Virus record (IMG/VR): IMGVR_UViG_3300037234_000200 | Coordinates: 1 to 29,122 of that record | Reading direction: 5' to 3' (one strand) | Length of the DNA: 29,122 nucleotides | Source: a virus | Part shown: positions 9,815-23,804 of the stretch, piece after piece | How positions within the stretch are numbered: position 1 is the first letter of the stretch | How the letters are laid out: each line of letters opens with the position of its first letter | Notes under the pieces: model-generated | The model's input: the letters and a program-made list of their open reading frames with translations, nothing else | What the model was told of the DNA's origin: nothing | The model's database searches: none | Position numbers and translations under genes: made by a program

Positions 9815-9830
9815 AGTTTTCACCCCTTTC

Positions 9831-9851
9831 GACTATTGTCGGACAATAGTC
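9831..9851. repeat. Dispersed palindrome copy 5 (perfect, intercistronic)
   Basis: Perfect palindrome: GACTATTGTC, central G, then the reverse complement. Its right end overlaps the stop codon of the upstream left-going gene (9851-9853). It lies 17 bases before the next start and directly before that gene's ribosome site. Confidence 0.85.
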
Positions 9852-10273
9852 TAATCTTTGTATGCGACCTCTGCTGTAAAAAACATTTCATCAGGTGTCC
9901 ACATAAGTTTAGGAGTCCATCGCAACTCCGTTAGGTTAAAAGTATTTACATACCTATGTCGTATACATATATCTCGCTCATCCTCATCTTGGAACACAGC
10001 TAATTTATAGTTACGGTGTGGGTCTACTCGATCTGGAATATATACTACGCGAGTAGTTAACTTTGCAGTCATATATAAGCCAGTGATAGAACTTAATATC
10101 CTTTCTACCAGTCCATCTGGTATCCAGTTATAAAATGTATCAGGTACGGTCAAGACTTTAGAATTGTGTATGAGCCAGTCAGAACCTTTTATCCAGTTAT
10201 CGTTTATGTATGCGCTACCGAATACGAATTGTTGCCTAAAATCCTGTAGTTTTATCTTTATGGTTGGCTTCAC
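9851..10273 (-). CDS. Hypothetical protein, 140 aa
   Basis: The GTG start at 10273 follows AAAGGAT at good spacing, only 3 bases after the DNA polymerase stop. The product is soluble, with many aromatic and basic residues (for example W-I-P-D-G-L-V-E and R-W-T-P-K-L-M-W-T-P). I recognise no family. It is embedded between polymerase and nuclease genes, so an accessory role in replication is plausible but unproven. Confidence 0.55.
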   Translation of the reverse strand: MKPTIKIKLQDFRQQFVFGSAYINDNWIKGSDWLIHNSKVLTVPDTFYNWIPDGLVERILSSITGLYMTAKLTTRVVYIPDRVDPHRNYKLAVFQDEDERDICIRHRYVNTFNLTELRWTPKLMWTPDEMFFTAEVAYKD

Positions 10274-10275
10274 GA

Positions 10276-12291
10276 TTAATCCTTTCTGTATCGTTTACCG
10301 ACGTAACCATCGGCTCGTATGGGCAGACCCCTTGCCCATTCTGGTAAGACGCATAACGCTTCGCAGTAGGCTTCAAATCTATCTAATGTCTCTACTGCGG
10401 GTAGTGTAGACTCCTCTGCAATACTCTCATCATGCACCGACCCTATACATCTGAACCCTGCACGTTCTGCTTTTAACATACCGTATACGAGTAGGTCACG
10501 CGCTAACGCTTGAATAATATTCTCAACCAGACGACCTCCATGCACAGGCATATCCGGTGCGTGTGTTCCATCCTTTAGAACCCTGTGCTGATCCCCAAGT
10601 CTACGCCACTGTTTAGTAGCCCCATCAATACCCATGTATGTGAAGCATTGATTATCATACTGTGCATCCCGTTGGATTTGTGGTAATGGGTAAGCTAAAA
10701 ATCTATCAGATGGTAGGAGAATAAAACTGTATTCATCACGGCCTATGAATTTGATGGTAGTCGTACCAGTGTGTAATTCAAGCAAGGATTTCTCAAGCGT
10801 TGCTTTGATTAAAAAGTTCTGAACTGTGTACCACAGGTCTGGAATCTCAGGATACGTGCTACGGTAAAACTTCTTATCCTTCTCCGCAGCTTGATCTGAT
10901 AGTACAATGCCATAGTTACCGGCCACTCGTTGAAGGGCTGCTGCTCCGCCACCATACCCAAGACCGAGAACACAAGGTTTGGCATACGTGCGCTGTCTCT
11001 TACTCACCAAATCATACGACACGTTGAACCTGCGTGAAGCATACCGCTTGTACTGGTCGATCTTGTTGGCGAAGTCTTCAGTGGTACGCATATCATTGGC
11101 TGTCCAATGCAGCACGACATTCTCTACTGATACATAGTCAGCCACATATAGAACCTTACCATCTTCAGCCTTAATCATAGGACGCACCAACTTTGATGCT
11201 GCTGCCCCGATGTTACCGTAAGTATCCATTAAATACTGAATGTCTTTAGTGGTGAAATCATCAATAACTCTATCGGGGTCTTCGTGCTGTGCGCGGGGCA
11301 AGTTATGTAACTGCACTCCCACTCCTGCAAACCTGCCAGTGTGACCGCCATAGTATTTTAGATTCCCTTTAATCCTGCCATCCTTGCACAACATCTCAAC
11401 CATACGGTTAAACTTAGCTGTACTACTGTGTGATACAGCTTGGCGACAGCGAAGAATCTCACGAGTCTTAGAGTCAAACATTTTCTTATCGAGAATCTCG
11501 GCTATTGTAGGCGCAGCAAGATTGGGTAATCCATGCCCCTGTCCTTGGATATAGTTGGTGATCCTCTGAACTTGAGTACCTTTAGTGACCCTGCCATTGG
11601 TGATTTGATATAGCTTGCTATTGGCTATGTTCTTAAACTCTTCGATCTGCCCCATGATCTCATGAACAGACTCAATATCTATGGGAAATCCACGTTGATT
11701 CTGCACAAGCATATGCTCAAACACATCTTTCTCAAATTCGGATAGGTCATTTTTTATTAATGCTTTGTGGCAGGCTCGGGTAGTCCTTACGTCCTGCTTG
11801 CAATATTCATACAAGTCCATGAACTCTGCTCGGTTTGTGTCTGGTGTGGGTGGGCGTACTCCTGACTTGCGTACACATAAGGTGTTAATCAGCCTTGTGC
11901 CAGATGCATCTTTTTGGTGGGCTACATTGAGTACTTTGGCAAGCTCTTCTAACTTGGCAGGGAACCCGAAGAGTCGGGCTACAGCTTGAACATCAATGAA
12001 GTCATGGGGTGTGAAATCACGCTGATCTTCTTCGAAGCACTCGTTCCATCGGAACCACTGATGATTCAGCACCCCCATTTCAAACTCTATGTTATGAGCA
12101 GGGAGAGTGTTGTCTGACAATAGTGCGGAAGGAAACTCCTGTTCTGGAACCCATAGTTCTACTGGCTTATCATCAAGTGCATACGCCATACACAATGGTT
12201 CGAAGTACACTGATTCCATGTACTTGTATGATCCTGCTATCTTAATGTTAATATCGGAGCGCGTCTCGAAATCAATGTATAGATTAGTCAT
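10276..12291 (-). CDS. Family A DNA polymerase with 3'-5' exonuclease domain
   Basis: I start at the ATG 12291 because AAGGAG lies 5 bases upstream and the protein then begins M-T-N-L-Y-I-D-F-E-T, placing the exonuclease I motif (D7, E9) at the N terminus as in phage polymerases; this gives 671 residues. The exonuclease III region Y-C-K-Q-D-V is visible near residue 170. Polymerase motif A is Y-V-A-D-Y-V-S-V-E-N (about 385), motif B is the K-R-Q-R-T-Y-A-K-P-C-V-L-G-L-G-Y-G region (about 430-447), and motif C is V-H-D-E-S (about 618). It would replicate phage DNA. A palindrome copy at 12105-12125 encodes L-L-S-D-N-T at residues 57-62, between exonuclease motifs I and II. Confidence 0.92.
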   Translation of the reverse strand: MTNLYIDFETRSDINIKIAGSYKYMESVYFEPLCMAYALDDKPVELWVPEQEFPSALLSDNTLPAHNIEFEMGVLNHQWFRWNECFEEDQRDFTPHDFIDVQAVARLFGFPAKLEELAKVLNVAHQKDASGTRLINTLCVRKSGVRPPTPDTNRAEFMDLYEYCKQDVRTTRACHKALIKNDLSEFEKDVFEHMLVQNQRGFPIDIESVHEIMGQIEEFKNIANSKLYQITNGRVTKGTQVQRITNYIQGQGHGLPNLAAPTIAEILDKKMFDSKTREILRCRQAVSHSSTAKFNRMVEMLCKDGRIKGNLKYYGGHTGRFAGVGVQLHNLPRAQHEDPDRVIDDFTTKDIQYLMDTYGNIGAAASKLVRPMIKAEDGKVLYVADYVSVENVVLHWTANDMRTTEDFANKIDQYKRYASRRFNVSYDLVSKRQRTYAKPCVLGLGYGGGAAALQRVAGNYGIVLSDQAAEKDKKFYRSTYPEIPDLWYTVQNFLIKATLEKSLLELHTGTTTIKFIGRDEYSFILLPSDRFLAYPLPQIQRDAQYDNQCFTYMGIDGATKQWRRLGDQHRVLKDGTHAPDMPVHGGRLVENIIQALARDLLVYGMLKAERAGFRCIGSVHDESIAEESTLPAVETLDRFEAYCEALCVLPEWARGLPIRADGYVGKRYRKD
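12105..12125. repeat. Dispersed palindrome copy 6 (inside the DNA polymerase gene)
   Basis: Core TTGTCTGACAA at 12110-12120 with partly eroded outer arms. On the coding (-) strand it is read A-L-L-S-D-N-T-L. Confidence 0.7.
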
Positions 12292-12487
12292 GCTTCTCCT
12301 TCCATTCTCGAAAGTCTTCGAGTAGCTGTTGTGCTTGGGTACCTGTAAACTCAGTGAACTGGTATCCATGAACTTCTGACATTTCCTTGAGCACACACTC
12401 AGGGTCTAAATATATGTAGCCCCCATTAGCAAACATTGGTTCTACGAATCTATCTGGATATTTTTTTCTACATCTTTGGCATTTCAT
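12284..12487 (-). CDS. Small Cys-containing protein, 67 aa
   Basis: ATG at 12487; the stop overlaps the start of the DNA polymerase gene by 8 bases, which suggests coupling. Residues 3-6 form C-Q-R-C, as in a zinc knuckle, but only one further Cys (C31) is present, so a complete four-ligand site is not evident. The C-terminal half is helical and charged. A short AT-rich palindrome family member (12504-12537) sits directly upstream. Function unknown. Confidence 0.55.
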   Translation of the reverse strand: MKCQRCRKKYPDRFVEPMFANGGYIYLDPECVLKEMSEVHGYQFTEFTGTQAQQLLEDFREWKEKHD

Positions 12488-12503
12488 CTTGGCCCCTTTG
12501 GGG

Positions 12504-12537
12504 GAGAGCCGTTTTATAATATTATAAAACGGCTCTC
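12504..12537. repeat. AT-rich palindrome copy A with extended arms
   Basis: Perfect 34-bp palindrome with outer arms GAGAGCCG and CGGCTCTC and core TTTATAATATTATAAA. It fills the space between the DUF2815 stop and the next start on the left-going strand, so it may be a terminator, an operator, or both. Confidence 0.75.
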
Positions 12538-12546
12538 AATTAGATG

Positions 12547-13206
12547 TTAGAGGAACTCAAATTCGTCCTTAGTGGTTTCCTCATCAGGAGGAGGACTCAG
12601 TTGGTCAACGTCTTCAGTGGCGAAACTGGAGAACTCGTCCTTTGCAGCATCAACACTGATAACAGAGTCGAGTCGGGCGTCGTCCTTGATCTTCATGAGG
12701 ACTTCAATGTACGCCCCGATACCTTTGGACTTAACATCGAAGTAGCGAAACACAATACGTGAACGATACCACGCGCCAGAATAAATCACCTGATCGTCGA
12801 TCATAGCCGGGGGTAAAGGGTCCCCGGTTGGCCCCAAGATGATGGGCTGACGGAACTTATTACGGACGTTCATAAACAGATGACCGTGATATTCCTCATT
12901 TTCCTCGTGGTCGCCGTTACGCAGGGGGATTTTGACGTTAGGGGATTTAATCATATCCATCCCCTTCTTATCACCGAATTTGTCGATGAACACTTGGGTA
13001 AACATCTTACCCATATCCCCGGCCCATGTTTTAACCTCATCATCACTCATCGGCCACCGGAGTTGACAGCCCCATTCAGGTTTGTCTCCCTCGGAGAAGG
13101 CTTCCGGTTCGAGGATGCGTTGCATGAAGCTGCCCCTTGCCAATGGTGGTTTAACGCGGTAGATTTTCTTTTCCGCGTTCATATCAATCGTGTATGTTTT
13201 TGGCAT
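12547..13206 (-). CDS. DUF2815 family ssDNA-binding protein
   Basis: The 219-residue product matches the DUF2815 phage family, which acts as the ssDNA-binding protein of such replication modules. Features include a hydrophobic/aromatic beta-rich body (G-A-W-Y-R-S-R-I-V-F-R-Y-F, about 143-155) and a strongly acidic C-terminal tail ending D-E-F-E-F-L, like the acidic aromatic-ended tails of SSB and T7 gp2.5 that recruit polymerase and helicase. The ATG has a strong AAGGAGG site. It follows the DUF2800 gene closely, the usual pairing for this module. Confidence 0.82.
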   Translation of the reverse strand: MPKTYTIDMNAEKKIYRVKPPLARGSFMQRILEPEAFSEGDKPEWGCQLRWPMSDDEVKTWAGDMGKMFTQVFIDKFGDKKGMDMIKSPNVKIPLRNGDHEENEEYHGHLFMNVRNKFRQPIILGPTGDPLPPAMIDDQVIYSGAWYRSRIVFRYFDVKSKGIGAYIEVLMKIKDDARLDSVISVDAAKDEFSSFATEDVDQLSPPPDEETTKDEFEFL

Positions 13207-13216
13207 AATACCCTCC

Positions 13217-14761
13217 TTATGCTTCTTTCACGGTGAAGGCACCGTGCGCGTGTAAGATCACAGTGTAACCATCACGCTCGTTTAAATTCCGCAGACCACG
13301 AGTGACCTGCGACTCACTACCACTGAACAAGGCACTGGCAGCATCCGCGATTAACACACCCCCTTTCATGCCCAACTCCATCAACTGATATTTCTTCGTC
13401 GATTTCTTGGGTGGCGTAGAATTTTTACCTTCTAACACAATGTCATCTTCACTCTCATCATCGTTAAGTGAATTAACGAGAGCGTCAATGTCATCAGGTG
13501 CGTCTGACTGTTGTCCGACAACACTCTCCGGTTCAGCGAACTCTGCCATATCCGCTTCGACTGCTACGCTGACAGCTTCGCGTGTATCATGTTCATCCAC
13601 AAGGATTGTCTTGCCGGTGGGCTTGATGATATGCTTGGCGAGTTCAGCTTTACCTGCCTTGTCGAGTTTCTTCTCCGCTTGGGCAGGGGAAAGAACCTTC
13701 GGTTTGCTGAATGGATCGTCGATCTCGAAGTCATCCTTCAAGACCTTTTCGATCTTACTTGCATCAGCCCACTTCCGATTTGATTTACCATACACCAGTT
13801 TGAACCCCGGTATCTCGACCCCTTGAAGGGCTTGTTTCATCGCCCACTCACCGACCTTCTTGAAATAATTATCGAAGTCGGTCTGGTACTCCAGAATCTT
13901 GCCGGCTATGGCAGGATTCATGTAGTCGAGAGATAGGTCCATCTTCTCGCGCACGGATTTCGCCAATGGCTGAACGTCTGGAACCATTGGTACTCCACCC
14001 TCAGTTTCAGAGTAGGGTTTAAACTCGTCCTGCGCCACACCTAACAGATAGTTAGATCGGGCAGTACATACTCCATTGGCAGGGCAGAATTGGCACTGGT
14101 CCTCACCGGGATTACACACAGCATCAGGTTCACCTGCTGCTGCAAATGCAGGTTGAACTGACTTCTGATACCATGTTTTGATTTCATCTACAGTGGTTTC
14201 CCATGTGCGAGTGCCAGGAGGGATACGAGGTTGAAGGATCACAAGAAGTGCCTTCTTTGGGATGGGTGATATTAGGTTGTTTTCATGGATATGTTTCAAG
14301 GCTCCAAGAAAGTAAATCATCAGTTGGGCGTTGCCTTCCGCTTCAACTGATTTACCTCTGCCGAATTTGAAGTCAATCACAATAACGTAATCATCATTGT
14401 AAAGTAATACATCGACAGTACCCCAACATTGTTCGTTGAGGTTAACACGGACTTCAAGTTTACCACCCTTGATTCCGTATTCTGCTGATATGCGTTTGAC
14501 CTCATCCACACAATACTGGACCGCTTCAACGTGGTCATCGTCGATCTCTAATTCATAATCGTCGATGTTATGCGTGGTGCCGAGAAATTCAATCGACCCC
14601 ATCTTTTCACGTAGACACATTTCAGATAAGGTGTGGAGGATTGTACCTTCCATAGCGTACTCGGATGGCTTGTCGTCGACCCCTTCGGACAATCGGATCG
14701 AGCCGGGGCAAGGTATCCATCTATGCGCTGCGGAAGGGGCAAACTTGGCGTGTAGTGCCAT
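13217..14761 (-). CDS. DUF2800 family PD-(D/E)XK nuclease
   Basis: The 514-residue protein starts with the typical H-A-K-F-A-P-S-A-A-H-R-W-I-P-C-P-G-S segment (C18). It has the nuclease core G-T-V-D-V-L (about 112-117) with V-I-D-F-K-F-G-R-G (about 127-135) and a later Cys cluster, C-N-P-G-E-D-Q-C-x-x-C-(x5)-C (about 212-228); with C18 this suggests an Fe-S cluster as in AddB/Cas4-like nucleases. The family accompanies DUF2815 and family A polymerase genes in phages and probably acts in recombination or end processing. A palindrome copy at 13506-13526 lies in an acidic linker (about 412-418) and is read as S-V-V-G-Q-Q-S, a different frame from the other coding copies. The last 60 residues form an extra small domain. 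Confidence 0.82.
   Translation of the reverse strand: MALHAKFAPSAAHRWIPCPGSIRLSEGVDDKPSEYAMEGTILHTLSEMCLREKMGSIEFLGTTHNIDDYELEIDDDHVEAVQYCVDEVKRISAEYGIKGGKLEVRVNLNEQCWGTVDVLLYNDDYVIVIDFKFGRGKSVEAEGNAQLMIYFLGALKHIHENNLISPIPKKALLVILQPRIPPGTRTWETTVDEIKTWYQKSVQPAFAAAGEPDAVCNPGEDQCQFCPANGVCTARSNYLLGVAQDEFKPYSETEGGVPMVPDVQPLAKSVREKMDLSLDYMNPAIAGKILEYQTDFDNYFKKVGEWAMKQALQGVEIPGFKLVYGKSNRKWADASKIEKVLKDDFEIDDPFSKPKVLSPAQAEKKLDKAGKAELAKHIIKPTGKTILVDEHDTREAVSVAVEADMAEFAEPESVVGQQSDAPDDIDALVNSLNDDESEDDIVLEGKNSTPPKKSTKKYQLMELGMKGGVLIADAASALFSGSESQVTRGLRNLNERDGYTVILHAHGAFTVKEA
13506..13526. repeat. Dispersed palindrome copy 7 (inside the DUF2800 gene, other frame)
   Basis: GACTGTTGTC, central C, GACAACACTC: one mismatch between arms. 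On the coding strand it is read S-V-V-G-Q-Q-S. The central base makes the GGA codon here; a T in that place on the coding strand would be a stop. Confidence 0.85.
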
Positions 14762-14788
14762 GTTAGTCTCCTTTTAGACGCAGAAAAC

Positions 14789-14821
14789 CCTTGAGAGTGT
14801 TGTCAGACAACACTCTCAAGG
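14789..14821. terminator. Palindrome copy 8: long intercistronic hairpin
   Basis: Perfect 33-bp palindrome with arms CCTTGAGAGTGTTGTC and the reverse complement around a central A. It starts on the left-going strand 17 bases after the ParB-like stop and 28 bases before the DUF2800 start. The extended arms make a strong stem, but no clear U-run follows, so it may be attenuating rather than fully terminating. Confidence 0.65.
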
Positions 14822-14837
14822 TTAGTTGATGGATACG

Positions 14838-16067
14838 CTATTTCTTTTTCTTGTTGGCCCCACCGAAGCGCGCTCTCATCGCTTTGAGTTCCTCGGCAAG
14901 GTCTTTGAACATCGACTCGGCGTGAACGTACTGGGCCTTGGACACCTTATCCCTGCCCAATCGTGCCCTTGCCAAAACGTGTTTCATGGCTTCGACAAAC
15001 TGTTCAGCTTCTTCGCCTTTGGTTTTGGACACCGGCTCTGCGGTGGTGGTCTTTTTGGCGTCCTTCTCGGCCTTAATCTCATCCTTCTTCATGGCCGTAA
15101 ATTCCCGGATGGCTTCCAGAGGGGACAATTCCTTCCCATCTTCCTTCGCTTTTTCTTTGAAGGCGTCAATGTCCCGCAGGTCGTGATAGTTGTACCCCTG
15201 CGTTTCGATGATCTTCTCCGCAGCCTGAATATCAGCAGCCGAGGAGCGAATCTTGGCCCCATCTTCCGGGTCCACTTCGGTCATCAGATTCCGGATTTTG
15301 TAAGTCATAGCGACCGAGGGCAGTTTTTTAGCGATCTCTCGCAAGGCTTCGCCTTCCTTCCCCGGCTCGTTAATCAACTGACACGCCATCTGGATCGGTG
15401 CCAAACTGTAGGTATGCTCCCCGAGAAACTGCCTGATCGCGGACGCACTGACTCCTGTATTTTTGGCCCGAGTGAATGACCGATCATCCATTTTCAATGG
15501 ATTGGGGCTGTTCACCATCTGGATAAAATCCGCTGCATCGGTGGCTTTCCCCAACAGCGTTTCCAGAAAGGACTTGATTTGAAACACCATCAGGTACACG
15601 TTCTGATCGGTGTCCTTGCTCCACGCATCTGCGTTCTCGATCATGAAATTGCGGAGCATTTCATCCTTGGTGTAATTCTTTTTGACGACTTTAATACACC
15701 AGTCGCCATCCGAATCCTTGAACAGACCCCGAACCTTCTCGGCATCCCCTGCTTCGATCAACTCCTGCAAAGCCTTCTTGCGGTGATGACCACCACCACC
15801 TAACGAGAAGCGACCCATTCTATCAGCCACGACCTCGAAAGTGGACTGGAATCCGTCAACCAGATAGGTCTCTTTGAGACCCTTGAGTTTGTCCGGCATC
15901 CACTGGAATACCTCATCGTTCCGGTGGGGGTTATTGAGCAGTTCCATGACCTTTACGGCTACCAAACTGCCTTCAGGCTTATGCTCTTTAATCGGAGCAG
16001 CATCGACCACCTCTGCCTTTGTATCTTTTGCGGTAGTTTCCGCAGTTTCTGTTTTGGCGTTTGCCAT
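14838..16067 (-). CDS. ParB-like protein
   Basis: The 409-residue product has a ParB N-terminal-type region. N-P-H-R-N-D-E (46-52) is followed by a helical stretch and then G-H-H-R-K-K-A (93-99), the equivalent of the G-x-H-R-x-x-A signature that binds nucleotide in ParB/sulfiredoxin-fold proteins. A later I-E-N-A segment and V-S-A-S-A-I-R-Q-F-L-G helix resemble the helix-turn-helix part. The C terminus is a long Lys/Glu/Ala-rich helix ending in K-K-K-K. It may bind DNA or act as a nuclease-like early protein; no ParA partner is present, so plasmid-type partition is not supported. A ribosome site GAGGAG precedes the ATG. Confidence 0.68.
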   Translation of the reverse strand: MANAKTETAETTAKDTKAEVVDAAPIKEHKPEGSLVAVKVMELLNNPHRNDEVFQWMPDKLKGLKETYLVDGFQSTFEVVADRMGRFSLGGGGHHRKKALQELIEAGDAEKVRGLFKDSDGDWCIKVVKKNYTKDEMLRNFMIENADAWSKDTDQNVYLMVFQIKSFLETLLGKATDAADFIQMVNSPNPLKMDDRSFTRAKNTGVSASAIRQFLGEHTYSLAPIQMACQLINEPGKEGEALREIAKKLPSVAMTYKIRNLMTEVDPEDGAKIRSSAADIQAAEKIIETQGYNYHDLRDIDAFKEKAKEDGKELSPLEAIREFTAMKKDEIKAEKDAKKTTTAEPVSKTKGEEAEQFVEAMKHVLARARLGRDKVSKAQYVHAESMFKDLAEELKAMRARFGGANKKKK

Positions 16068-16097
16068 GATGATTTTCTCCTCTCATCAGTTTGTGTT

Positions 16098-16119
16098 CGT
16101 TTTATAATATTATAAATCG
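16098..16119. repeat. AT-rich palindrome copy B
   Basis: Core TTTATAATATTATAAA (16101-16116), flanked by CGT on the left and TCG on the right, so the outer arms are slightly imperfect. It lies about 31-50 bases upstream of the ParB-like start on the left-going strand. Confidence 0.7.
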
Positions 16120-16122
16120 GCC

Positions 16123-16314
16123 CTAACCAGTTTTCTTATCACCCCCTTTCGGACTGTTGTCCGACAACAGTCTGTAGTTTTTTCCATTCATCCAACAGCG
16201 AACGAGTCCGCAGATTAGACACGTACCTTTATAAGCTATGCGAGTATTGGCGAACTCATACCTTTTAAAGGACAGGTCTGGTATTAGACATTTGCATTTA
16301 CTGGTATTAGACAT
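16123..16314 (-). CDS. Small Cys-rich protein with palindrome-encoded C terminus, 63 aa
   Basis: First gene after the promoter at 16346-16374; the leader is about 25 bases. Cysteines at C7, C9, C32, C35 and C40 suggest a zinc-binding fold. Residues about 48-54 (R-L-L-S-D-N-S-P) are encoded by the perfect palindrome at 16152-16172, followed by K-G-G-D-K-K-T-G. The same R-L-L-S-D-N-S-P ending appears in the small terminase protein, so both proteins probably gained their C-terminal tails by reading through a palindrome. No family recognised. Confidence 0.55.
   Translation of the reverse strand: MSNTSKCKCLIPDLSFKRYEFANTRIAYKGTCLICGLVRCWMNGKNYRLLSDNSPKGGDKKTG
16152..16172. repeat. Dispersed palindrome copy 9 (perfect, at the 3' end of a CDS)
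   Basis: Perfect 21-bp copy: GACTGTTGTC, central C, then the reverse complement. On the coding (-) strand it is read L-L-S-D-N-S and is followed by CGAAAGGGGGTGA, a ribosome-site-like run that also follows copy 5. Confidence 0.9.
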
Positions 16315-16330
16315 ACACTTAGCCCCAAGT

Positions 16331-16345
16331 GGTACTTAAAGTACC
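16331..16345. promoter_or_regulatory. Operator-like palindrome at a transcription start
   Basis: Perfect dyad GGTACTT-A-AAGTACC directly downstream of the -10 box of the left-going promoter; the predicted start (about 16339) falls inside it. Such placement is typical of a repressor site. Confidence 0.6.
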
Positions 16346-16374
16346 ATTATACCACACTTAGTGGTGTTTGTCAA
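16346..16374 (-). promoter_or_regulatory. Consensus sigma-70 promoter (left-going)
   Basis: On the minus strand: TTGACA (16369-16374), a 17-base spacer, then TATAAT (16346-16351), a full match to the host consensus. It lies between the stop of the 95-residue Zn protein gene and the start of the 63-residue gene, and probably drives the ParB-like and replication genes to the left. Confidence 0.88.
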
Positions 16375-16383
16375 GCTTTATTT

Positions 16384-16671
16384 TTATCCCGCCACTTTCT
16401 TGCCTGTAGCGCGATCATATTCCTGTCCTTTGCCTAATCCAAGTCCTTGGCCTTTATTTCTATGGCATGGGGGACACATATTAGCCCAAGGACCGTAAAC
16501 TGTCACCCCATCAATCCAGGTTTCGTGTTCGTCTAACGCACATTTACATATGTCACATCTTGCCGGTGAAGCACCCATCCACTTCTTTTGTTTTGGCTGT
16601 TTGACCTTGCCGGTTTTGTGTTCAAGTACGGCCCCAACTGTAAACATCTTGTGTAGTTCTTTTGACTTCAT
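16384..16671 (-). CDS. Zinc-binding small protein, 95 aa
   Basis: C39-D-I-C42-K-C44 and C66-P-P-C69-H70 form a likely zinc site around G-P-W-A-N-M-C, and the C terminus is G-Q-G-L-G-L-G-K-G-Q-E-Y. Short phage proteins with this C-D-I-C ... G-P-W-A-N-M-C-P-P-C-H ... G-L-G layout are common; I know of no assigned function. A GGGAGGTGA ribosome site precedes the ATG. It ends just upstream of the promoter at 16346-16374. Confidence 0.65.
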   Translation of the reverse strand: MKSKELHKMFTVGAVLEHKTGKVKQPKQKKWMGASPARCDICKCALDEHETWIDGVTVYGPWANMCPPCHRNKGQGLGLGKGQEYDRATGKKVAG

Positions 16672-16685
16672 TTAATCACCTCCCG

Positions 16686-16922
16686 TTAATCGTAGTAGCT
16701 GAACCATAATACCACCCATCCACGCAAATCTGTTGCCCATGCAGGATACTGATATGGTGGCTCGTCCGTTGTATCCGATTGAACAATGTCGCCTAACATA
16801 CAGACAGCATACACTTCATCGTCAATCTCCATTAGGTTATAGCCACGATCAAGAGCATACCACTGGCTAATATCATCCTTGAACAAACAGATGACATACG
16901 GTTTTCCCTCAGACTTATCCAT
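16686..16922 (-). CDS. Hypothetical protein, 78 aa
   Basis: An acidic small protein with several aromatic residues, including W-A-T-D-L-R-G-W-V-V-L-W-F-S-Y-Y-D at the C terminus. It directly follows the 69-residue gene (stop TAA immediately before this ATG), so the two are co-translated. No recognised family. Short acidic early proteins of phages often bind host enzymes, but nothing in the sequence shows this here. Confidence 0.5.
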   Translation of the reverse strand: MDKSEGKPYVICLFKDDISQWYALDRGYNLMEIDDEVYAVCMLGDIVQSDTTDEPPYQYPAWATDLRGWVVLWFSYYD

Positions 16923-17132
16923 TTATTCACCCCCTCCCGTTTGGATTTCACTCCACTCTTCAATGGTGAGATTAAGTCTGACCATACCCTCTCGCCACTG
17001 TTCATTGACATTTTTAATCGTAGTCTCAGATACGCCACGCATACGTGCGTTAGTAGTCCACCTAACAAACGTGGACCCTTCAGCCTTGATCGCCTTTGCT
17101 CTTTCAAATGATATTCCGATTGTGATTGTCAT
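16923..17132 (-). CDS. Hypothetical protein, 69 aa
   Basis: A strong AAAGGAGG site lies 6 bases before the ATG. The segment M-R-G-V-S-E-T-T-I-K-N-V-N-E-Q-W resembles a helix-turn-helix recognition region (V-S-E-x-T-I-x-x-V), so a small DNA-binding protein is possible. The AT-rich palindrome copy C begins about 11 bases upstream, so this gene may be controlled through it. Family not recognised. Confidence 0.55.
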   Translation of the reverse strand: MTITIGISFERAKAIKAEGSTFVRWTTNARMRGVSETTIKNVNEQWREGMVRLNLTIEEWSEIQTGGGE

Positions 17133-17142
17133 TCAATCCTCC

Positions 17143-17160
17143 TTTTATAATATTATAAAA
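17143..17160. repeat. AT-rich palindrome copy C
   Basis: TTTTATAATATTATAAAA, perfect. It ends about 10 bases before the start codon of the 69-residue gene and abuts its ribosome site; palindrome copy 10 lies 26 bases to the right. Confidence 0.75.
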
Positions 17161-17175
17161 CGGATTAAATCCGCA

Positions 17176-17218
17176 TAATCGGTCAAGACTATTGTCTGAT
17201 AACAGTCTCAACCGATTA
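17176..17218. terminator. Palindrome copy 10 with extended arms
   Basis: The core copy (17187-17207: GACTATTGTC, T, GATAACAGTC) is flanked by TAATCGGT and ACCGATTA, making a 43-bp symmetric region centred at 17197 with two short mismatched stretches. It begins 6 bases after the stop of the 136-residue gene, fitting a terminator or processing hairpin. Confidence 0.6.
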
Positions 17219-17224
17219 AACTGA

Positions 17225-17635
17225 TCATCCGTCGCGGTAGCCTTCTCTGATAATGGGATTCAACCAATCAATAAAATTCTCTTCGTCTTCAAAATCCCAG
17301 TGCTGTGCAACATTGGCTCCGAGCGCGTATACGTGCGTTCGCAGATCACCATACGCAGGCTGCTCTAATTCCGGTCTGAATTTCTTGGGCTTCTGCTCTT
17401 CAAGTCTCGGAGAAATGTGCTTGACTCCACACAACCTCCGACCAGTGGCATACTCCACTTTTTCAATTATGGCGTTGATGCCTTCAATCGCTTCTCTCTC
17501 CATTTCCATAATCGCTTCATTTTTCAAAGCGATCTCGTCCACAATGGTTTCAGCGGAGACTTTGACTTCAAAGCCATGCTCACCATCGGGGATGGTGTGT
17601 CCTCTCGGGACAGTGCAAATCCGTTCGTACTTCAT
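17225..17635 (-). CDS. Hypothetical protein, 136 aa
   Basis: ATG at 17635 with AAGGGGG 6 bases upstream. The first 45 residues are beta-like; residues about 36-60 form a charged helix (A-L-K-N-E-A-I-M-E-M-E-R-E-A-I), possibly a short coiled coil; the C terminus is acidic and aromatic. No family recognised. It is the last gene of the small early operon started by the promoter at 18099-18127. Confidence 0.55.
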   Translation of the reverse strand: MKYERICTVPRGHTIPDGEHGFEVKVSAETIVDEIALKNEAIMEMEREAIEGINAIIEKVEYATGRRLCGVKHISPRLEEQKPKKFRPELEQPAYGDLRTHVYALGANVAQHWDFEDEENFIDWLNPIIREGYRDG

Positions 17636-17674
17636 GCGACCCCCTTCTTATGGTCTAAAGGTTTTTGCCAATCG

Positions 17675-17824
17675 CTAATCGCCCATGATGTAATCGAGCA
17701 TAAAATCAGCGTCAATATCCGCTTCATACTTCACAAAGAAAAATGCTTCCGTGTAACTATCCGCCACGAAAGACATATTTAATCCGCTTACACGCCACCC
17801 TTGATCCGTCCACTTGATCCGCAT
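17675..17824 (-). CDS. Small acidic protein, 49 aa
   Basis: ATG at 17824 preceded by AAGGGGGTGA, stop TAG at 17675-17677. The product starts M-R-I-K-W-T-D-Q-G-W-R-V and ends D-Y-I-M-G-D. It begins immediately after the stop of the next upstream gene (TAAATG), so the two are translated as a pair. No family recognised; coding support is the ribosome site and packing. Confidence 0.55.
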   Translation of the reverse strand: MRIKWTDQGWRVSGLNMSFVADSYTEAFFFVKYEADIDADFMLDYIMGD

Positions 17825-17950
17825 TTAATCACCCCCTTCAAGTTGTTCAAATCTCTTTTCAACTACGATCAGCAAATCATTGTTAAAACCATCGACTGCA
17901 TAAATCAGTGCCATGATAAACAAAATCGTGCCTATGATCCATTTTATCAT
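17825..17950 (-). CDS. Small membrane protein, 41 aa
   Basis: ATG at 17950 with GGGAGA just upstream; stop TAA at 17825-17827. Residues 2-19 (I-K-W-I-I-G-T-I-L-F-I-M-A-L-I-Y-A-V) form one membrane helix, followed by a short acidic tail. It is the first gene after the promoter at 18099-18127. Small early phage membrane proteins often act on host functions, but no role can be read here. Confidence 0.5.
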   Translation of the reverse strand: MIKWIIGTILFIMALIYAVDGFNNDLLIVVEKRFEQLEGGD

Positions 17951-17984
17951 TTTATCTCCCGATCAGTTTTGTGTTTATATTCCA

Positions 17985-18005
17985 GACTGTTGTCTGATAA
18001 TAGTC
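17985..18005. repeat. Dispersed palindrome copy 11
   Basis: GACTGTTGTC, T, GATAATAGTC: two arm differences. It lies in the leader of the left-going operon between its promoter (start about 18092) and the first gene, next to AT-rich copy D. Confidence 0.8.
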
Positions 18006-18015
18006 TACGATTCTC

Positions 18016-18037
18016 CGTTTTATAATATTATAAAACG
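18016..18037. repeat. AT-rich palindrome copy D
   Basis: Perfect 22-bp palindrome: CG, TTTTATAATATTATAAAA, CG. It lies 10 bases from palindrome copy 11, in the leader of the left-going operon. Confidence 0.8.
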
Positions 18038-18092
18038 ATTCAAAAACCGCTTTATTCAGGGTGTATACAAAAGGATAAACCTCAAGTGTTCA

Positions 18093-18112
18093 ATGTATAT
18101 TATATCATACAT
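18093..18112. promoter_or_regulatory. Operator-like dyad over a -10 box
   Basis: ATGTAT and ATACAT separated by 8 bases, symmetric across the TATAAT of the left-going promoter. Confidence 0.5.
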
Positions 18113-18127
18113 AGTCCTATATGTCAA
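18099..18127 (-). promoter_or_regulatory. Consensus sigma-70 promoter (left-going)
   Basis: Minus-strand TTGACA (18122-18127), 17-base spacer, TATAAT (18099-18104): full consensus. It is the likely promoter for the three genes from 17950 to 17225. It shares the TTGACATA start with the promoters near 19176 and 20416. Confidence 0.88.
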
Positions 18128-18249
18128 GGGACCGATAGGTGTATAAAACGGGGTTTATGGCAGGGGTTTAAAATGGATTTTAAGGGGTCTTAAAGCCGAT
18201 TCTAAGGACTTTAAAAGTCAAGATATACCATAAGCCCTTTAAAATAACA

Positions 18250-18279
18250 AAACCCCTTGAACGGCCATTCAAGGGGTTT
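18250..18279. terminator. Hairpin 3 of a tandem terminator array
   Basis: AAACCCCTTGAA / TTCAAGGGGTTT arms of 12 bases around a 6-base loop, with runs of A and T on either side. It lies downstream of the left-going 238-residue gene. Confidence 0.7.
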
Positions 18280-18295
18280 AAATTGAATTTGCTGT

Positions 18296-18318
18296 AAAGC
18301 CTTGACAGTCAAGGCTTT
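18296..18318. terminator. Hairpin 2 of a tandem terminator array
   Basis: AAAGCCTTGA / TCAAGGCTTT arms of 10 bases around a 3-base loop. Confidence 0.65.
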
Positions 18319-18327
18319 AAAATAAAA

Positions 18328-18358
18328 AACCCCTATAGACTCAAAGCCTATAGGGGTT
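18328..18358 (-). terminator. Hairpin 1 of a tandem terminator array
   Basis: AACCCCTATAG / CTATAGGGGTT arms around a 9-base loop. On the minus strand it is followed by a T-rich tract, fitting an intrinsic terminator 14 bases after the stop of the 238-residue gene. Confidence 0.75.
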
Positions 18359-18371
18359 CAAGTTAAAAGGT

Positions 18372-19088
18372 TTATGCGGTTTTGGCTTTTTTCGGTTCGG
18401 CTGGAATTGTGCCCTTGACCGTATGAATTGAAACAGCTACGTCGGACAACCGATAAGACAGGTTGTCAATTTCATGCGCTTGCGTTTCCTTATACTGTTT
18501 CGGGTTATTCAAGGTTCGCTGTTCAAGGACTTCTGTTGCATGGTTCATAAAAGCCAAAATTTGGTCAATGGTTAACTTTTCCATTGATACCGATTTTGCT
18601 TCCGCTGTTGCTTTTTCCGCTGCTGTTTTCTTTACAACCGGACCCTTGTCGACCGGACTTTTTAAACCGACCGCTTTAAAGTCCTCTGCTGTTGCCGATT
18701 CATTTGCTTTCAAGTCCTTGCGGATTGCAGCTTTGATACTGGCAGGATTTGACAAGGTTTTGCCTTTTGTGGCCTTGTCGATAGCCGATTGATTAGTGAA
18801 TAGCCAAATGGCATTTGAAACGTCTTGACTGTTCATAAGCGGAAAATAGGTTTTGACAAACTCCCCAAAGATACCGGAATTGAGGTTTGTCTTTTCACTT
18901 GCCAGATGTGATTTTGCTTGACTTGCGAACGCTCCAAAGTTCAACCAAGCCTGTTTGTCGGCTTTGATACGTTGTGTACCTTTTAAAGTATCATACGCCT
19001 TTTGAGCTTGAGTAAAGTCTTTTTTAGTCAAGCCTAAGTCCTTCAAAGCCCTTGTCAGTTGTGCGTTTGTTTCTGTTGCTGTTGCCAT
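18372..19088 (-). CDS. Hypothetical early protein, 238 aa
   Basis: The ATG at 19088 has AAAGGA about 8 bases upstream and is preferred to TTG 19094. The product is Ala/Lys/Thr-rich and helical, with an N-terminal segment T-R-A-L-K-D-L-G-L-T-K-K-D-F and a C-terminal basic tail (P-K-K-A-K-T-A). No family recognised. It is a single-gene unit: its own promoter (19153-19181), a 5' hairpin, and three tandem terminators after it. It is the first left-going gene beside the control region, so it is probably expressed early and strongly. Confidence 0.6.
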   Translation of the reverse strand: MATATETNAQLTRALKDLGLTKKDFTQAQKAYDTLKGTQRIKADKQAWLNFGAFASQAKSHLASEKTNLNSGIFGEFVKTYFPLMNSQDVSNAIWLFTNQSAIDKATKGKTLSNPASIKAAIRKDLKANESATAEDFKAVGLKSPVDKGPVVKKTAAEKATAEAKSVSMEKLTIDQILAFMNHATEVLEQRTLNNPKQYKETQAHEIDNLSYRLSDVAVSIHTVKGTIPAEPKKAKTA

Positions 19089-19126
19089 TGTCAATTCCTT
19101 TCTTGTGCCACATTGTGGTGGCTGTT

Positions 19127-19152: not shown

Positions 19153-19181
19153 AATGTAATACATTTCTGGTTGTATGTCAA
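19153..19181 (-). promoter_or_regulatory. Probable sigma-70 promoter (left-going)
   Basis: Minus-strand TTGACA (19176-19181), 17-base spacer, TACATT (19153-19158; 4 of 6 consensus). A perfect dyad AATGTA-A-TACATT (19153-19165) covers the -10 box, as an operator would. Confidence 0.65.
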
Positions 19182-19736: not shown

Positions 19737-19880
19737 GGACTGTCAGCGGTCAGCGGTCAGCGGTCAGCCTGTTGCCTGTCAGCCTGTCAGCCTGTCAGCC
19801 TGTCAGCCTGTTGCCTGTTGCCTGTTGCCTGTTGCCTGTTGCCTGTTGCCTGTTGCCTGTTGCCTGTTGCCTGTCAGGGT
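19737..19880. repeat. Tandem 7-8-bp array (GTCAGCG, TGTCAGCC, TGTTGCC)
   Basis: Several GTCAGCG units, then TGTTGCC, four TGTCAGCC, then nine exact TGTTGCC units (19809-19871) and a final TGTCAGG. It is phase-shifting between 7 and 8 bp, so not protein-coding. The unit TGTTGCC resembles the TGTTGTC half-site of the dispersed palindrome. Confidence 0.85.
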
Positions 19881-20111: not shown

Positions 20112-20132
20112 GACTGTTGTCTGCCAATAATC
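20112..20132. repeat. Dispersed palindrome copy 13 (degenerate)
   Basis: GACTGTTGTC, T, GCCAATAATC: intact left half, two changes in the right half. Confidence 0.6.
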
Positions 20133-20159
20133 CCAAATTTCCTCACTTAATAGAAACCA

Positions 20160-20179
20160 TTGGCACGATTCTTGCATAG
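20160..20179 (+). promoter_or_regulatory. Sigma-54-type promoter (right-going)
   Basis: TTGGCACG-ATTC-TTGCATAG contains the full -24/-12 signature TGGCACG-N4-TTGC(A/T), with GG and GC separated by 10 bases. It points right toward the late operon; expected start about 20187. Its exact 20-base reverse complement occurs at 20378-20397. Confidence 0.72.
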
Positions 20180-20197
20180 GAGAACTTCCGCACCCTC

Positions 20198-20358
20198 GGA
20201 GTATTGACAAGCCCGATAATACTCTGCCCCTACCCGTACCCCATTTGGGAGTATTGTAGTCGCTGACAATAGCTTTCAGGGCTGTTGTCATTCATTTAAA
20301 GGCATGGTCAATACTCCAGACTACCGACCCCACCCACTCTAAGTATTGTCACAATACT
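20198..20358. promoter_or_regulatory. Cluster of GGAGTATTG half-sites between the sigma-54 promoters
   Basis: GGAGTATTG at 20198 and 20248, inverted copies ending in ATACTC at 20217-20224 and 20308-20317, GACAATAGC at 20265, GGCTGTTGTC at 20280, and a perfect AGTATTGT-C-ACAATACT dyad at 20342-20358. All resemble halves of the dispersed palindrome. Confidence 0.5.
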
Positions 20359-20377
20359 CTCGATTTAAAGTATCGCT

Positions 20378-20397
20378 CTATGCAAGAATCGTGCCAA
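20378..20397 (-). promoter_or_regulatory. Sigma-54-type promoter (left-going)
   Basis: Exact reverse complement of 20160-20179, so the same perfect -24/-12 motif reads left, toward the other copy. Expected start about 20370, about 183 bases from the right-going start. Confidence 0.7.
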
Positions 20398-20415
20398 GTG
20401 TTTTAAAAATAGTTC

Positions 20416-20444
20416 TTGACATACACTACTTTATGTGATATAAT
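20416..20444 (+). promoter_or_regulatory. Consensus sigma-70 promoter for the late operon
   Basis: TTGACA (20416-20421), 17-base spacer, TATAAT (20439-20444): full consensus, about 60 bases before the small terminase start. It shares TTGACATA and a TGATATAAT -10 region with the promoter at 18099-18127. Confidence 0.88.
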
Positions 20445-20465
20445 GACTCCATATATGGAGTCATT
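20442..20465. promoter_or_regulatory. Operator-like palindrome at the late promoter start
   Basis: Perfect 24-bp dyad: AATGACTCCATA and its complement, overlapping the end of the -10 box and the predicted start (about 20451). Confidence 0.65.
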
Positions 20466-20482
20466 AAACGAACCCAAATTGA

Positions 20483-20503
20483 GACTATTGTAGGACAATA
20501 CTC
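20483..20503. repeat. Palindrome copy 14, start-codon variant
   Basis: GACTATTGTA, G, GACAATACTC, ending 2 bases before the small terminase ATG. The core reads TTGTAGGACAA instead of TTGTCNGACAA, which creates an AGGA 10 bases before the ATG. The same variant recurs only before the endolysin gene. Confidence 0.8.
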
Positions 20504-20505
20504 CG

Positions 20506-20994
20506 ATGGATTTTGACTTTTTAAACGACACAGCGGAAGTTGAGGATAAAGCGGGTCCCTTAATTCCAGACGTATTGGAAGAGGGACACGGACCGAATCT
20601 GACGAAGATGAACCAGATGACGCGCAAGAAGTTTACGCAGGGCGTGTTGAATGTTTATCAGCAGTTGGGCGGTGACGTATGGCTGTTGCAGCAAGCAGCT
20701 ATTGATCCTAAAGGCTTCCTTGATATGATGAAGAAACTAATCCCTACCAATATGAACATTGACCAGATGGAGGGATTTAGCATCACATTGATTGACCGCT
20801 ACGGAAACCGTGCGGAAATTAACCAAAATGGCGATTCACCCCGCGCAGTCGAACTTGGCCCCAAACCATCGCAAGACCGCGCAAATGAGCAGCCGGGGGA
20901 GGGACCTGATCTGGCTATCACGGAAACTTTCCCGGCTCCTCCTAACAGACTGTTGTCGGACAACAGTCCAGAAGGATTTGACTTTGAACTATAA
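20506..20994 (+). CDS. terS: Putative small terminase subunit
   Basis: The 162-residue product has a central T-R-K-K-F-T-Q-G-V-L-N-V-Y-Q-Q-L-G-G-D-V-W-L-L-Q-Q-A segment (about residues 42-67), then D-P-K-G-F-L-D-M-M-K-K-L-I-P, a layout I associate with podophage small terminase subunits. That role fits the first gene of the late operon, though lysis genes separate it from TerL. The N terminus is acidic. The last residues include R-L-L-S-D-N-S-P, encoded by a perfect palindrome at 20948-20968. There is no separate ribosome site except the AGGA inside palindrome copy 14. Assignment is by motif resemblance and position. Confidence 0.62.
   Translation: MDFDFLNDTAEVEDKAGPLIPDVLEEGHGPNLTKMNQMTRKKFTQGVLNVYQQLGGDVWLLQQAAIDPKGFLDMMKKLIPTNMNIDQMEGFSITLIDRYGNRAEINQNGDSPRAVELGPKPSQDRANEQPGEGPDLAITETFPAPPNRLLSDNSPEGFDFEL
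20948..20968. repeat. Dispersed palindrome copy 15 (perfect, 3' end of terS)
   Basis: Perfect 21-bp copy, GACTGTTGTC, G, then the complement; read L-L-S-D-N-S eight codons before the stop. Confidence 0.92.
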
Positions 20995-21941: not shown

Positions 21942-21962
21942 GACTATTGTAGGACAATACTC
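21942..21962. repeat. Palindrome copy 16, start-codon variant
   Basis: Identical 21-bp sequence to copy 14, again 2 bases before an ATG (ACTCTGATGGAT here, ACTCCGATGGAT there). AGGA in its middle is the only visible ribosome site for the endolysin gene. Confidence 0.85.
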
Positions 21963-21964
21963 TG

Positions 21965-22387
21965 ATGGATCAAAGAATCGAAATAGCAAGAGAAGTTGCA
22001 ATGTCTTACATCGGCACTTACTATAAGTGGGGTGGTGATGATCCTTCTGGATTTGACTGCTCTGGTTTTGTTATTGAAGTCCTCAAGTCAATTGGTGCTT
22101 TCCCGCGTAAAGGTGATTCAACTGCTGCCGGTCTATATCAACGGTACGCAAGAGTAAGTGGGCCTGATTTGGGAAATCTTGTCTTCTATGGTACAAGCAA
22201 GGTCACACACGTTGAATTTTGTCTCGGAAAGGAATTAGCTATTGGAGCATCTGGTGGTGGAAGTCGTTGCACCAATGACGCGATGGCTATTCAACTAAAC
22301 GCTTACATCAAAATACGGCCAATTAAATCCAGAACTGGGATTATGGGCTATAGTGATCCTTTCCAAAGGTGGAGGAGAGATGACTGA
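21965..22387 (+). CDS. NlpC/P60 peptidase, probable endolysin
   Basis: The 140-residue protein is one NlpC/P60 domain: F-D-C-S-G-F-V (catalytic Cys32) and V-T-H-V-E-F (His82), with W-G-G at 22-24. The family cleaves peptide bonds in peptidoglycan stem peptides. No signal peptide is visible, so a holin would release it. It follows the holin-like and lipoprotein genes and overlaps the large terminase start by 8 bases. Confidence 0.83.
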   Translation: MDQRIEIAREVAMSYIGTYYKWGGDDPSGFDCSGFVIEVLKSIGAFPRKGDSTAAGLYQRYARVSGPDLGNLVFYGTSKVTHVEFCLGKELAIGASGGGSRCTNDAMAIQLNAYIKIRPIKSRTGIMGYSDPFQRWRRDD

Positions 22388-23804
22388 AATCCAGATACCT
22401 TTCAACTTCTCACCGTATGATTATCAGATACCTCTCTACAACTGCATTCCTGATGGGTTCAAGAGAGGGTTTGCTATTATGCATCGACGCGCGGGGAAGG
22501 ATAAAGTGTTTATGAATATCCTCGCGCGCGAGTGCGTCAAGCGCGTGGGTACCTATTTTTATATCCTGCCATACTATAAGCAGGCACGTTTGATTATATG
22601 GGAGGGGGTTGATAACGATGGTTTTAAATTTCGTGACCATATTCCACCTGCTATTGTTGCCCGTAAAGAGAATCAGCAGATGGTTCTGGAGTTGGTTAAT
22701 GGTAGCGTTATACGTTTTCTCGGAAGTGATAATATTGATAGTATCGTTGGCACAAATCCTGTGGGGGTTCTGTTCTCGGAGTATCCACTCCATAAGCCAC
22801 AGGCATGGCAATACCTCAGACCCATCTTAGCACAGAATGGCGGGTGGGCTTTATTCAATGGCACTCCTCGTGGTAAGAACCACGCTCACAAATTATATGT
22901 ATTAGCGAAACAATCCCCCGACTGGTTCACGACAATGCAAACTGTCGAGGACACCTATAAACCTGATGGAACTCACGTTGTAACCCAAAAAGCAATCCAA
23001 GCTGAAAAAGACGCAGGTATGCCCCCTGAACTGGTAGAGCAAGAATTCTACTGTTCATTTCAGGCGGGTATGTCAGGCGCATATTATACAGACCAACTGA
23101 AGTGGTTGGATATACAAGACCCTCCCCGTATTACTGCTGTCCCTTATGATCCAAATCTACCAGTCGGGTGTGCATGGGATTTAGGGAGGAATGATGAAAA
23201 TCCTATCTGGTTTTATCAACAGCATAGAGAAGAAGTACGCCTTATTGATTTCTACACAAACAGTCACAAAGATTTACCGCATTACGTCAATTATATCAAT
23301 CGTACTGGGTATCACGTTACTGAGCATCTGCTCCCTTTCGATGTGAACGTGCATGAATACACAAACAACAGAAAACGCATCGACACCTTTCGGTCATTGA
23401 AGTTGAAGGGTTTGCGCGTAATGCCTAAGTTATCAAAGGAAGAGGGCAGAAATGCAGTACGTCAACTCTTACCAAGATGTTGGTTTGACGCAATTAAGAC
23501 TGCGTTCGGAGTCGAATGTCTTCGCAACCATCATAAAGAGTTCGACGAGAAGACAGGCACATTCAGAGACAACCCTGCGAAAACAGAATGGATTCACGGT
23601 GCGGACGCCTTCAGGATGCTTGCTATTGGTTTACGGAACGCACCTACAAAAGACCAGAAGAATATGTTGAATCAAACCCACGCTATTGGGTTTAATCATG
23701 ACCCGTTCAAAGCAAGCCATCAAAACCTAATGACGCAACATGAACGGCATGAACTTTACACTAATCCTAACAATTATGACCCCTTTCAAGGGGCAGGGAG
23801 GTAA
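22380..23804 (+). CDS. terL: Terminase large subunit
   Basis: The ATG at 22380 follows GGAGGAGAG, so the frame beginning at 22353 is trimmed; this gives 474 residues. The ATPase domain shows M-H-R-R-A-G-K-D-K (34-42) as a variant Walker A with Asp in place of Ser/Thr, a form I know from some podophage terminases, then L-F-S-E-Y (Walker B-like) and F-N-G-T-P-R-G-K-N. The nuclease part has C-A-W-D-L-G and H-G-A-D-A-F-R-M. It would package DNA with the TerS protein encoded upstream; lysis genes separate the two subunits. Confidence 0.88.
   Translation: MTEIQIPFNFSPYDYQIPLYNCIPDGFKRGFAIMHRRAGKDKVFMNILARECVKRVGTYFYILPYYKQARLIIWEGVDNDGFKFRDHIPPAIVARKENQQMVLELVNGSVIRFLGSDNIDSIVGTNPVGVLFSEYPLHKPQAWQYLRPILAQNGGWALFNGTPRGKNHAHKLYVLAKQSPDWFTTMQTVEDTYKPDGTHVVTQKAIQAEKDAGMPPELVEQEFYCSFQAGMSGAYYTDQLKWLDIQDPPRITAVPYDPNLPVGCAWDLGRNDENPIWFYQQHREEVRLIDFYTNSHKDLPHYVNYINRTGYHVTEHLLPFDVNVHEYTNNRKRIDTFRSLKLKGLRVMPKLSKEEGRNAVRQLLPRCWFDAIKTAFGVECLRNHHKEFDEKTGTFRDNPAKTEWIHGADAFRMLAIGLRNAPTKDQKNMLNQTHAIGFNHDPFKASHQNLMTQHERHELYTNPNNYDPFQGAGR

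Follow-up and report, generated by a model that had tools for sequence, protein, structure and literature searches.

The window, i.e., the whole stretch of DNA analysed here (29,122 bases, an entire IMG/VR record), is a fragment of a podovirus-like phage with two divergent gene blocks. The replication block (genes at 4833-19094, - strand) encodes a primase/helicase-type protein, an SNF2-like helicase, DNA polymerase A, a single-stranded DNA-binding protein and an exonuclease. The terminase/structural block (+ strand, from 20506 onward) encodes a holin, the terminase large subunit, a T7-type head-tail adaptor, the major head protein and a tail protein. A noncoding junction of 1.4 kb separates the blocks and contains both of the sigma-54-type sites that are the subject of this study (Table 1). 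The product of the first gene of the terminase/structural block has no match in Pfam or PHROG and, judged by its position, is probably the terminase small subunit. By portal and capsid, the nearest cultured relatives are SAR11 phages, e.g., HTVC010P; no DNA match to the window phage was found among annotated phages, and a portal search of cellular genomes gave no relative. An ORF of many short repeats (S/T-TLRGYL... type) at 2-2080 probably encodes a tail-associated or fibre protein.

Table 1. Positions of the features discussed in the text (window coordinates, except for the last row)
Feature	Position	Strand	Remarks
First gene of leftward block, 240 aa	18372..19094	-	~1.3 kb downstream of leftward sigma-54 predicted start; weak homologue at equivalent position of G025
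Sigma-70-like promoter nearer leftward block	19153..19181	-	10/12; region no richer in such sites than shuffles, hence weak
21-bp dyad	20112..20132	.	-55 to -75 from rightward sigma-54 predicted start
Conserved noncoding regulatory block	20124..20468	.	341/345 bases identical to sister phage L004
Rightward sigma-54-type element	20160..20179	+	-24 TGGCAC 20161-20166; -12 TTGC 20172-20175; predicted start 20187; toward terminase/structural block
Inter-site segment, 198 bp	20180..20377	.	shared leader of the two predicted transcripts; contains eight alternately oriented half-sites of the phage-wide dyad
Leftward sigma-54-type element	20378..20397	-	exact match; predicted start 20370; toward replication block
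Consensus sigma-70 promoter of terminase/structural block	20416..20444	+	TTGACA-N17-TATAAT, 12/12 match
Perfect 26-bp palindrome TAATGACTCCATATATGGAGTCATTA	20441..20466	.	spans predicted sigma-70 start
21-bp dyad	20483..20503	.	ends 2 bases before 20506 start codon; -113 to -133 from leftward sigma-54 predicted start
First gene of late block	20506..20994	+	162 aa; homologue at equivalent position of G025, 52% over 64 aa
Terminase large subunit	22353..23804	+	phrog_2, 3.6e-30
21-bp dyad, starts of copies 1-10	441, 2619, 4804, 5940, 8237, 9831, 12105, 13506, 14795, 16152
21-bp dyad, starts of copies 11-19	17187, 17985, 19226, 20112, 20483, 20948, 21942, 24169, 28205
G025 dyad GAYTGCCACNNGTGGCARTC, examples	15264, 16728, 20438, 20939, 25410, 28069

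Two perfect sigma-54-type sites face each other

The two 20-mers are exact reverse complements, each with the core TGGCACGATTCTTGCA and with 10 bases separating GG from GC; an earlier sequence-only reading of this DNA had pointed them out, and its coordinates and sequence were verified. Both are perfect matches to TGGCAC-N5-TTGCW, located in a divergent junction upstream of transcribable genes. No third copy of the 20-mer occurs in the window at up to 3 mismatches, and outside the two sites TGGCACN5TTGCW has no zero-mismatch match in its 29 kb. With a second-order Markov model, 0.028 perfect sites are expected per 29 kb and none of 600 simulated windows contained two, so that we rejected a chance origin of the pair.

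Predicted starts were obtained by counting from the -12 element and fall on the positions named in that reading. The rightward site reads across the leftward one into the terminase/structural block, and the leftward site reads across the rightward one toward the replication block. The two predicted transcripts, starting at 20187 and at 20370, would overlap for ~183 nt and then enter opposite gene blocks, the first genes lying 0.32 kb (+) and ~1.3 kb (-) from the predicted starts. The proposal that transcription converges on the DNA between the sites thus holds in that the sites face each other, but there is no shared target, the gene blocks being divergent.

Imperfect complementarity of the two sites reaches 26 nt (an inverted repeat at 92%), as would be seen in sites of site-specific inversion or of hairpin formation. 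Alternatively, TTGGCA in the leftward site could merely be the -35 of a weak sigma-70 promoter, its TTGGCA-N17-GATACT scoring 9/12. That score is the level reached by shuffles, no -10 goes with the rightward site, and this reading would give no reason for the -12/-24 spacing. The segment has the same orientation in the window and in 2 close relatives (L003 and L004), and the single or tandem copies in other viruses (see below) are not inverted repeats; we thus give these proposals a very slight chance of being right. An invertible promoter segment in particular was rejected, given the single orientation in all three records and the absence of a recognised recombinase from the scanned proteins of the window.

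Other elements of the junction and a phage-wide dyad

The terminase/structural block has a consensus sigma-70 promoter, whose -35 has the leftward sigma-54-type site 19 bp behind it; the palindrome that spans the predicted start of this promoter is likely an operator. The sequence-only reading had a host activator controlling entry into late expression. We do not favour this, since the late block has a perfect sigma-70 promoter; because the more conserved, leftward site points toward the replication block, the phrase would suit the rightward site only. A physical genome end at the junction is not favoured either: the contigs of the window, L003 and G025 (a distant relative, see below) assemble across it. 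Elsewhere in the noncoding junction, at 19740-19880, there are tandem repeats of CCTGTTG/CCTGTCAG units, which are longer and altered in L004.

The segment between the sites contains half-sites at about 20198, 20217, 20248, 20265, 20281, 20307, 20342 and 20352. As RNA, it folds better than shuffles (z -5.9 and -3.4), but inverted half-sites alone would produce such folding, and no Rfam family matches the inter-site RNA. We therefore rejected a structured RNA or known RNA family as the explanation of the segment.

The full 21-bp dyad, GASTRTTGTCNGACAAYASTC, occurs in 19 copies across the window, with 0.17 expected by chance, and 13 of the 19 lie outside genes though ~87% of the window is coding. 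At positions 3 and 5, one arm of the dyad varies independently of the other, which points more to the target of a dimeric DNA-binding protein than to an RNA hairpin. G025 (L193/L194) has 23 copies of a different dyad, several of them at equivalent gene boundaries; on this comparison, the sequence of the dispersed dyad family is changed between relatives and its placement is partly kept. The dyads at 20483-20506 and 21942-21965 of the window are identical to each other. Each stops exactly 2 bases short of a start codon and includes AGGA, an element resembling a ribosome-binding site, so that binding there could also control the start of translation. A 409-aa protein (14838-16067, - strand) is conserved in G025 and has a GHHR motif resembling ParB N-domains. 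As a ParB-like binder of the dyad it was set aside: neither Pfam nor PDB gave a match, and its model is of low confidence (pLDDT 42).

Conservation of the leftward site in distant relatives

The record L003 is 99.8% identical to the window. In the sister phage L004, the 345 bases at 20124-20468 are 98.8% identical, compared to 81-91% in the flanks (341/345 in the block, 181/224 in the left flank and 413/454 in the gene on its right; Fisher P 1e-11). In the 198-bp segment separating the sites, identity is 100%. Three of the 4 differences in the block hit the rightward site: two fall in its 5-base spacer and the third changes the final base of the 20-mer; the -24 and -12 elements of this site are intact, and the leftward site is 100% conserved. 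Although it comprises only three changes, this substitution pattern agrees with selection on the -24 and -12 elements.

To look further afield, we collected relatives at 30-55% identity by terminase alignment. Of these, G025 (L177; 40 kb, L193 + L194) shows synteny with the window across the two blocks, and its proteins are ~28-55% identical (the weakest matches being short). Its 40 kb contain a single site at up to 1 mismatch, TTGGCATGATTCTTGCATAC at 20293 (-), which shares 18/20 bases with the leftward site of the window and has the same junction location and leftward orientation, while the surrounding noncoding DNA is nearly unalignable. This site lies ~65 bp behind a perfect TTGACA-N17-TATAAT, compared to 19 bp in the window, and in a local alignment of the two junctions the sigma-70 promoter and the leftward site are among the three best pieces. 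The perfect TTGACA-N17-TATAAT of this relative (L176/G025) is at the place equivalent to that in the window, next to the leftward sigma-54-type site. In L179, a degenerate leftward counterpart, TGGTATGCCGCTTGCA, is found at the equivalent place behind a sigma-70-like promoter, with a perfect leftward site 280 bp further. No sigma-54-type site is present in the terminase relatives L178, L180, L183, L184 and L189. L007 has one weak rightward site, on which we do not rely.

G025 has no counterpart of the rightward site at the equivalent place, and this site was seen solely in the near-identical relatives L003 and L004. Of the two motifs, only the leftward one is therefore conserved in distant relatives. 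As judged from these alignments, the leftward site is an old one that has been retained repeatedly, the rightward site is restricted to the nearest kin, and the facing arrangement, absent from G025, is a local elaboration.

The sequence-only reading also saw in the shared spacer a sign that one copy arose from the other. This argument loses most of its force because GATTC is the commonest spacer of viral sites (26/416); it is present in G025 too, and the rightward spacer differs in L004. The common spacer, together with the confinement of the rightward copy to near-identical phages, would also be expected if the pair were due to chance or to a recent duplication without function. We consider this very improbable in view of the expectation of 0.028, the conservation of the block (98.8% versus 81-91% around it) and the homologous site in a relative with ~50% protein identity.

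The motif recurs in unrelated viruses

The exact 20-mer was found in 20 IMG/VR stretches. With the spacer left free, two convergent cores 175-205 bases apart are present in 25 viral contigs, tandem core pairs in at least 80 contigs and divergent core pairs, with a looser pattern, in 36; these pair counts, like the groups below, are drawn from loci chosen for a given pair spacing and are not frequencies among all viruses. Not a single IMG/VR contig has a convergent pair with a broken, 6-base spacer, and across 128 loci from these scans there are 538 cores with a spacer of 5 bases but only 1 each with 4 and 6. The published sigma-54 consensus is TGGCAC-N5-7-TTGCT (PMC12316311). In 416 distinct viral contexts, the bases flanking the core, which were not used in selection, follow the preferences of the sigma-54 consensus: Y before TGGCAC in 80%, R after it in 96% and W after TTGCW in 76%. 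Together with the conservation of the leftward site, this lends support to the sigma-54-type identity originally proposed, as far as sequence comparison can.

The sites cluster in at least 79 viral groups without detectable DNA similarity around the cluster. The statement that sigma-54 promoters are rarely reported in phages may thus hold for the literature, but such sites recur across many viral genomes. They were not found everywhere: HTVC010P has no perfect sigma-54-type site, and neither do, in the parts read, cultured phages close to the cluster-bearing viruses, namely PP21, the CVT22 ends, Rhodoferax P26218, Venkman and a Microcystis phage. Same-direction arrays comprise up to ten sites (L082, 1964-2252) and nine sites (L106, 6302-6657), with spacings of ~18-91 bp. 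L012 (3661-3779) contains three 43-bp tandem units, each a head-to-head pair one base apart that leaves no room for two holoenzymes together. In certain clusters of other viruses, sites are separated by 17-19 bp, a distance that would not let holoenzymes occupy both at once.

Clusters lie 5' of the terminase and mostly point away from it

Rough ORF-based classes put 18 of the 79 groups at divergent junctions, 13 within runs of co-directional genes and none at convergent junctions, with 22 mixed and 26 undecided; the window itself was classed as mixed, small antisense ORFs in the junction confusing the method. Of 20 large ORFs adjoining clusters that were scanned, 16 are terminase large subunits, belonging to several families. 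A homology search recognised a terminase in 40 groups, and in 39 of these the cluster is on the 5' side, with the terminase reading away from it (P 7e-11). Among sites within 3.6 kb of the terminase, 83 point away from it versus 35 toward it; by group, 15 are all-away and 0 all-towards. The block that the sites point to in the other viruses is mostly without assigned function, and its "early" nature is suggested by position and by the window, where it holds the replication genes.

Since pac and cos sites often occur next to terminase genes, the motif might instead serve another DNA-binding protein of the phage, acting in replication, packaging or regulation, that shares the consensus by coincidence; the arrays and palindromic pairs in L012 and L080 do resemble operator arrays. 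However, the 10-base core with its free spacer stands beside widely diverged terminases, whose recognition sites would differ, and the unselected flanks agree with sigma-54. Moreover, relatives in this phage family differ in the sequence of their true phage-specific dyad but not in that of the sigma-54-type site. We regard recognition by such a protein as improbable.

A host activator may license transcription

The sequence-only reading had noted that no sigma-54 activator gene is seen here, which we could confirm on a wider basis: PF00158 has no match in 25 viral records (the window, L004, G024, G025 and 21 others, mostly fragments), while 14/14 control genomes match. In the range where upstream activator sites would lie (about -80 to -200), there is a dyad at -113 to -133 of the leftward start in the window and at about -155 to -174 in G025, but the same dyad is found genome-wide.

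Within sigma-54 biology, the main rival to promoter function is that sigma-54 holoenzyme is bound at the sites but mainly stays there as a silent closed complex. Such complexes would repress or insulate, stand in the way of polymerases or titrate RpoN, and would seldom initiate transcription. E. coli provides a precedent: most of its mapped sigma-54 sites appear to give no transcription, and promoters that overlap a site can be repressed by sigma-54 (PMC4591121). Such a role would be in keeping with the 19 bp between the leftward site and the sigma-70 -35, with the dense or head-to-head arrays in other phages and with the absence of a phage-encoded activator from the records scanned. On the other hand, the distance of ~65 bp in G025 means that steric occlusion is not conserved, and the bias away from the terminase and the absence from convergent junctions suit promoters better. 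Silent regulation of neighbouring promoters is, in our judgement, unlikely, with a small but real chance of being correct.

We therefore come back to promoter function. On sequence grounds, both 20-mers are probably promoters read by the host sigma-54 (RpoN) polymerase at the junction of the replication and terminase/structural blocks, although we hold this with no more than moderate confidence. Some points speak against it: the leftward block is 1.3 kb away and has a nearer sigma-70-like promoter, several TerL relatives have no site, HTVC010P has no perfect one, and sites in some clusters of other viruses are very closely spaced. From the sequence, conservation and position of the sites and from the lack of an activator in these records, we infer binding, activation, timing and collision as follows. 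Sigma-54 holoenzyme would sit at each site as a closed complex, which a host enhancer-binding protein, switched on by a stress or nutrient signal, would open with ATP. From the leftward promoter, which is conserved and older than the other, a transcript with a leader of ~1.3 kb would then run into the replication block, and the rightward promoter would add sigma-54-dependent transcription of the terminase/structural block atop that from the consensus sigma-70 promoter. Because the promoters face each other, activated polymerases might collide or yield complementary leaders over ~183 nt, and the pair could in this way bias expression to one side at a time.

Significance and comparison with known systems

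Takeover of the host by phages is usually explained by sigma-70 promoters and phage-encoded factors. A broader proposal, which we put forward tentatively and at slightly less than even confidence, is that many unrelated tailed phages carry clusters of host sigma-54 promoters 5' of the terminase, mostly aimed at the early/replication block on the other side. On this proposal, the start of expression would be licensed by a host activator responding to stress or nutrients, and not by a phage factor; the window would be the case in which a facing pair serves both blocks. The pattern suggests an unreported way for phages to couple expression to a host stress or nutrient regulator, and no report of sigma-54 promoter clusters in phages was found in the open-licence literature searched. 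Sigma-54 promoters as such are already known, and the new aspect would be their recurrent clustered use beside phage terminase genes; the interest thus attaches mainly to the pattern as a whole, with the window as a single, well-conserved instance. If the proposal is true, the timing of infection depends on host physiology (nitrogen, envelope stress), and rpoN and its activators become determinants of phage success. The positional rule, which puts the cluster 5' of the terminase in 39 out of 40 unrelated groups, lends itself to direct testing in cultured phages that have such a cluster.

Several known systems invite comparison. The stoperators of mycobacteriophage L5 and the c1 operators of P1 are many copies of one binding site dispersed over a phage genome; the 21-bp dyad of the window would be analogous in its dispersed copies, but is symmetric, has a spacing of ~1.5 kb and comes with no recognised repressor. 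HTVC010P-type podoviruses resemble the window phage in having a homologous portal (41%) and capsid (53%) and a divergent junction before the terminase, but HTVC010P differs in being without a perfect sigma-54-type site. Bacterial sigma-54 (RpoN) promoters (-24 GG / -12 GC) are alike in core, spacing and flanking preferences, from which an activator-dependent start would be expected; unlike them, the window sites are in a phage genome, form a facing pair that would feed divergent viral blocks and have no linked activator gene, and in other viruses there are arrays of up to 10 sites. The host psp operon, with its sigma-54 activator PspF, ties sigma-54 transcription to envelope stress, which infection can cause; it differs in being a host stress operon, the window sites being candidate phage promoters. 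Finally, the early promoters A1-A3 of T7 are strong, tandem sigma-70 promoters for the host polymerase that open the early region. The sites described here would be similar as host-polymerase promoters at an early region, with the difference that expression from promoters of sigma-54 type would depend on an activator.
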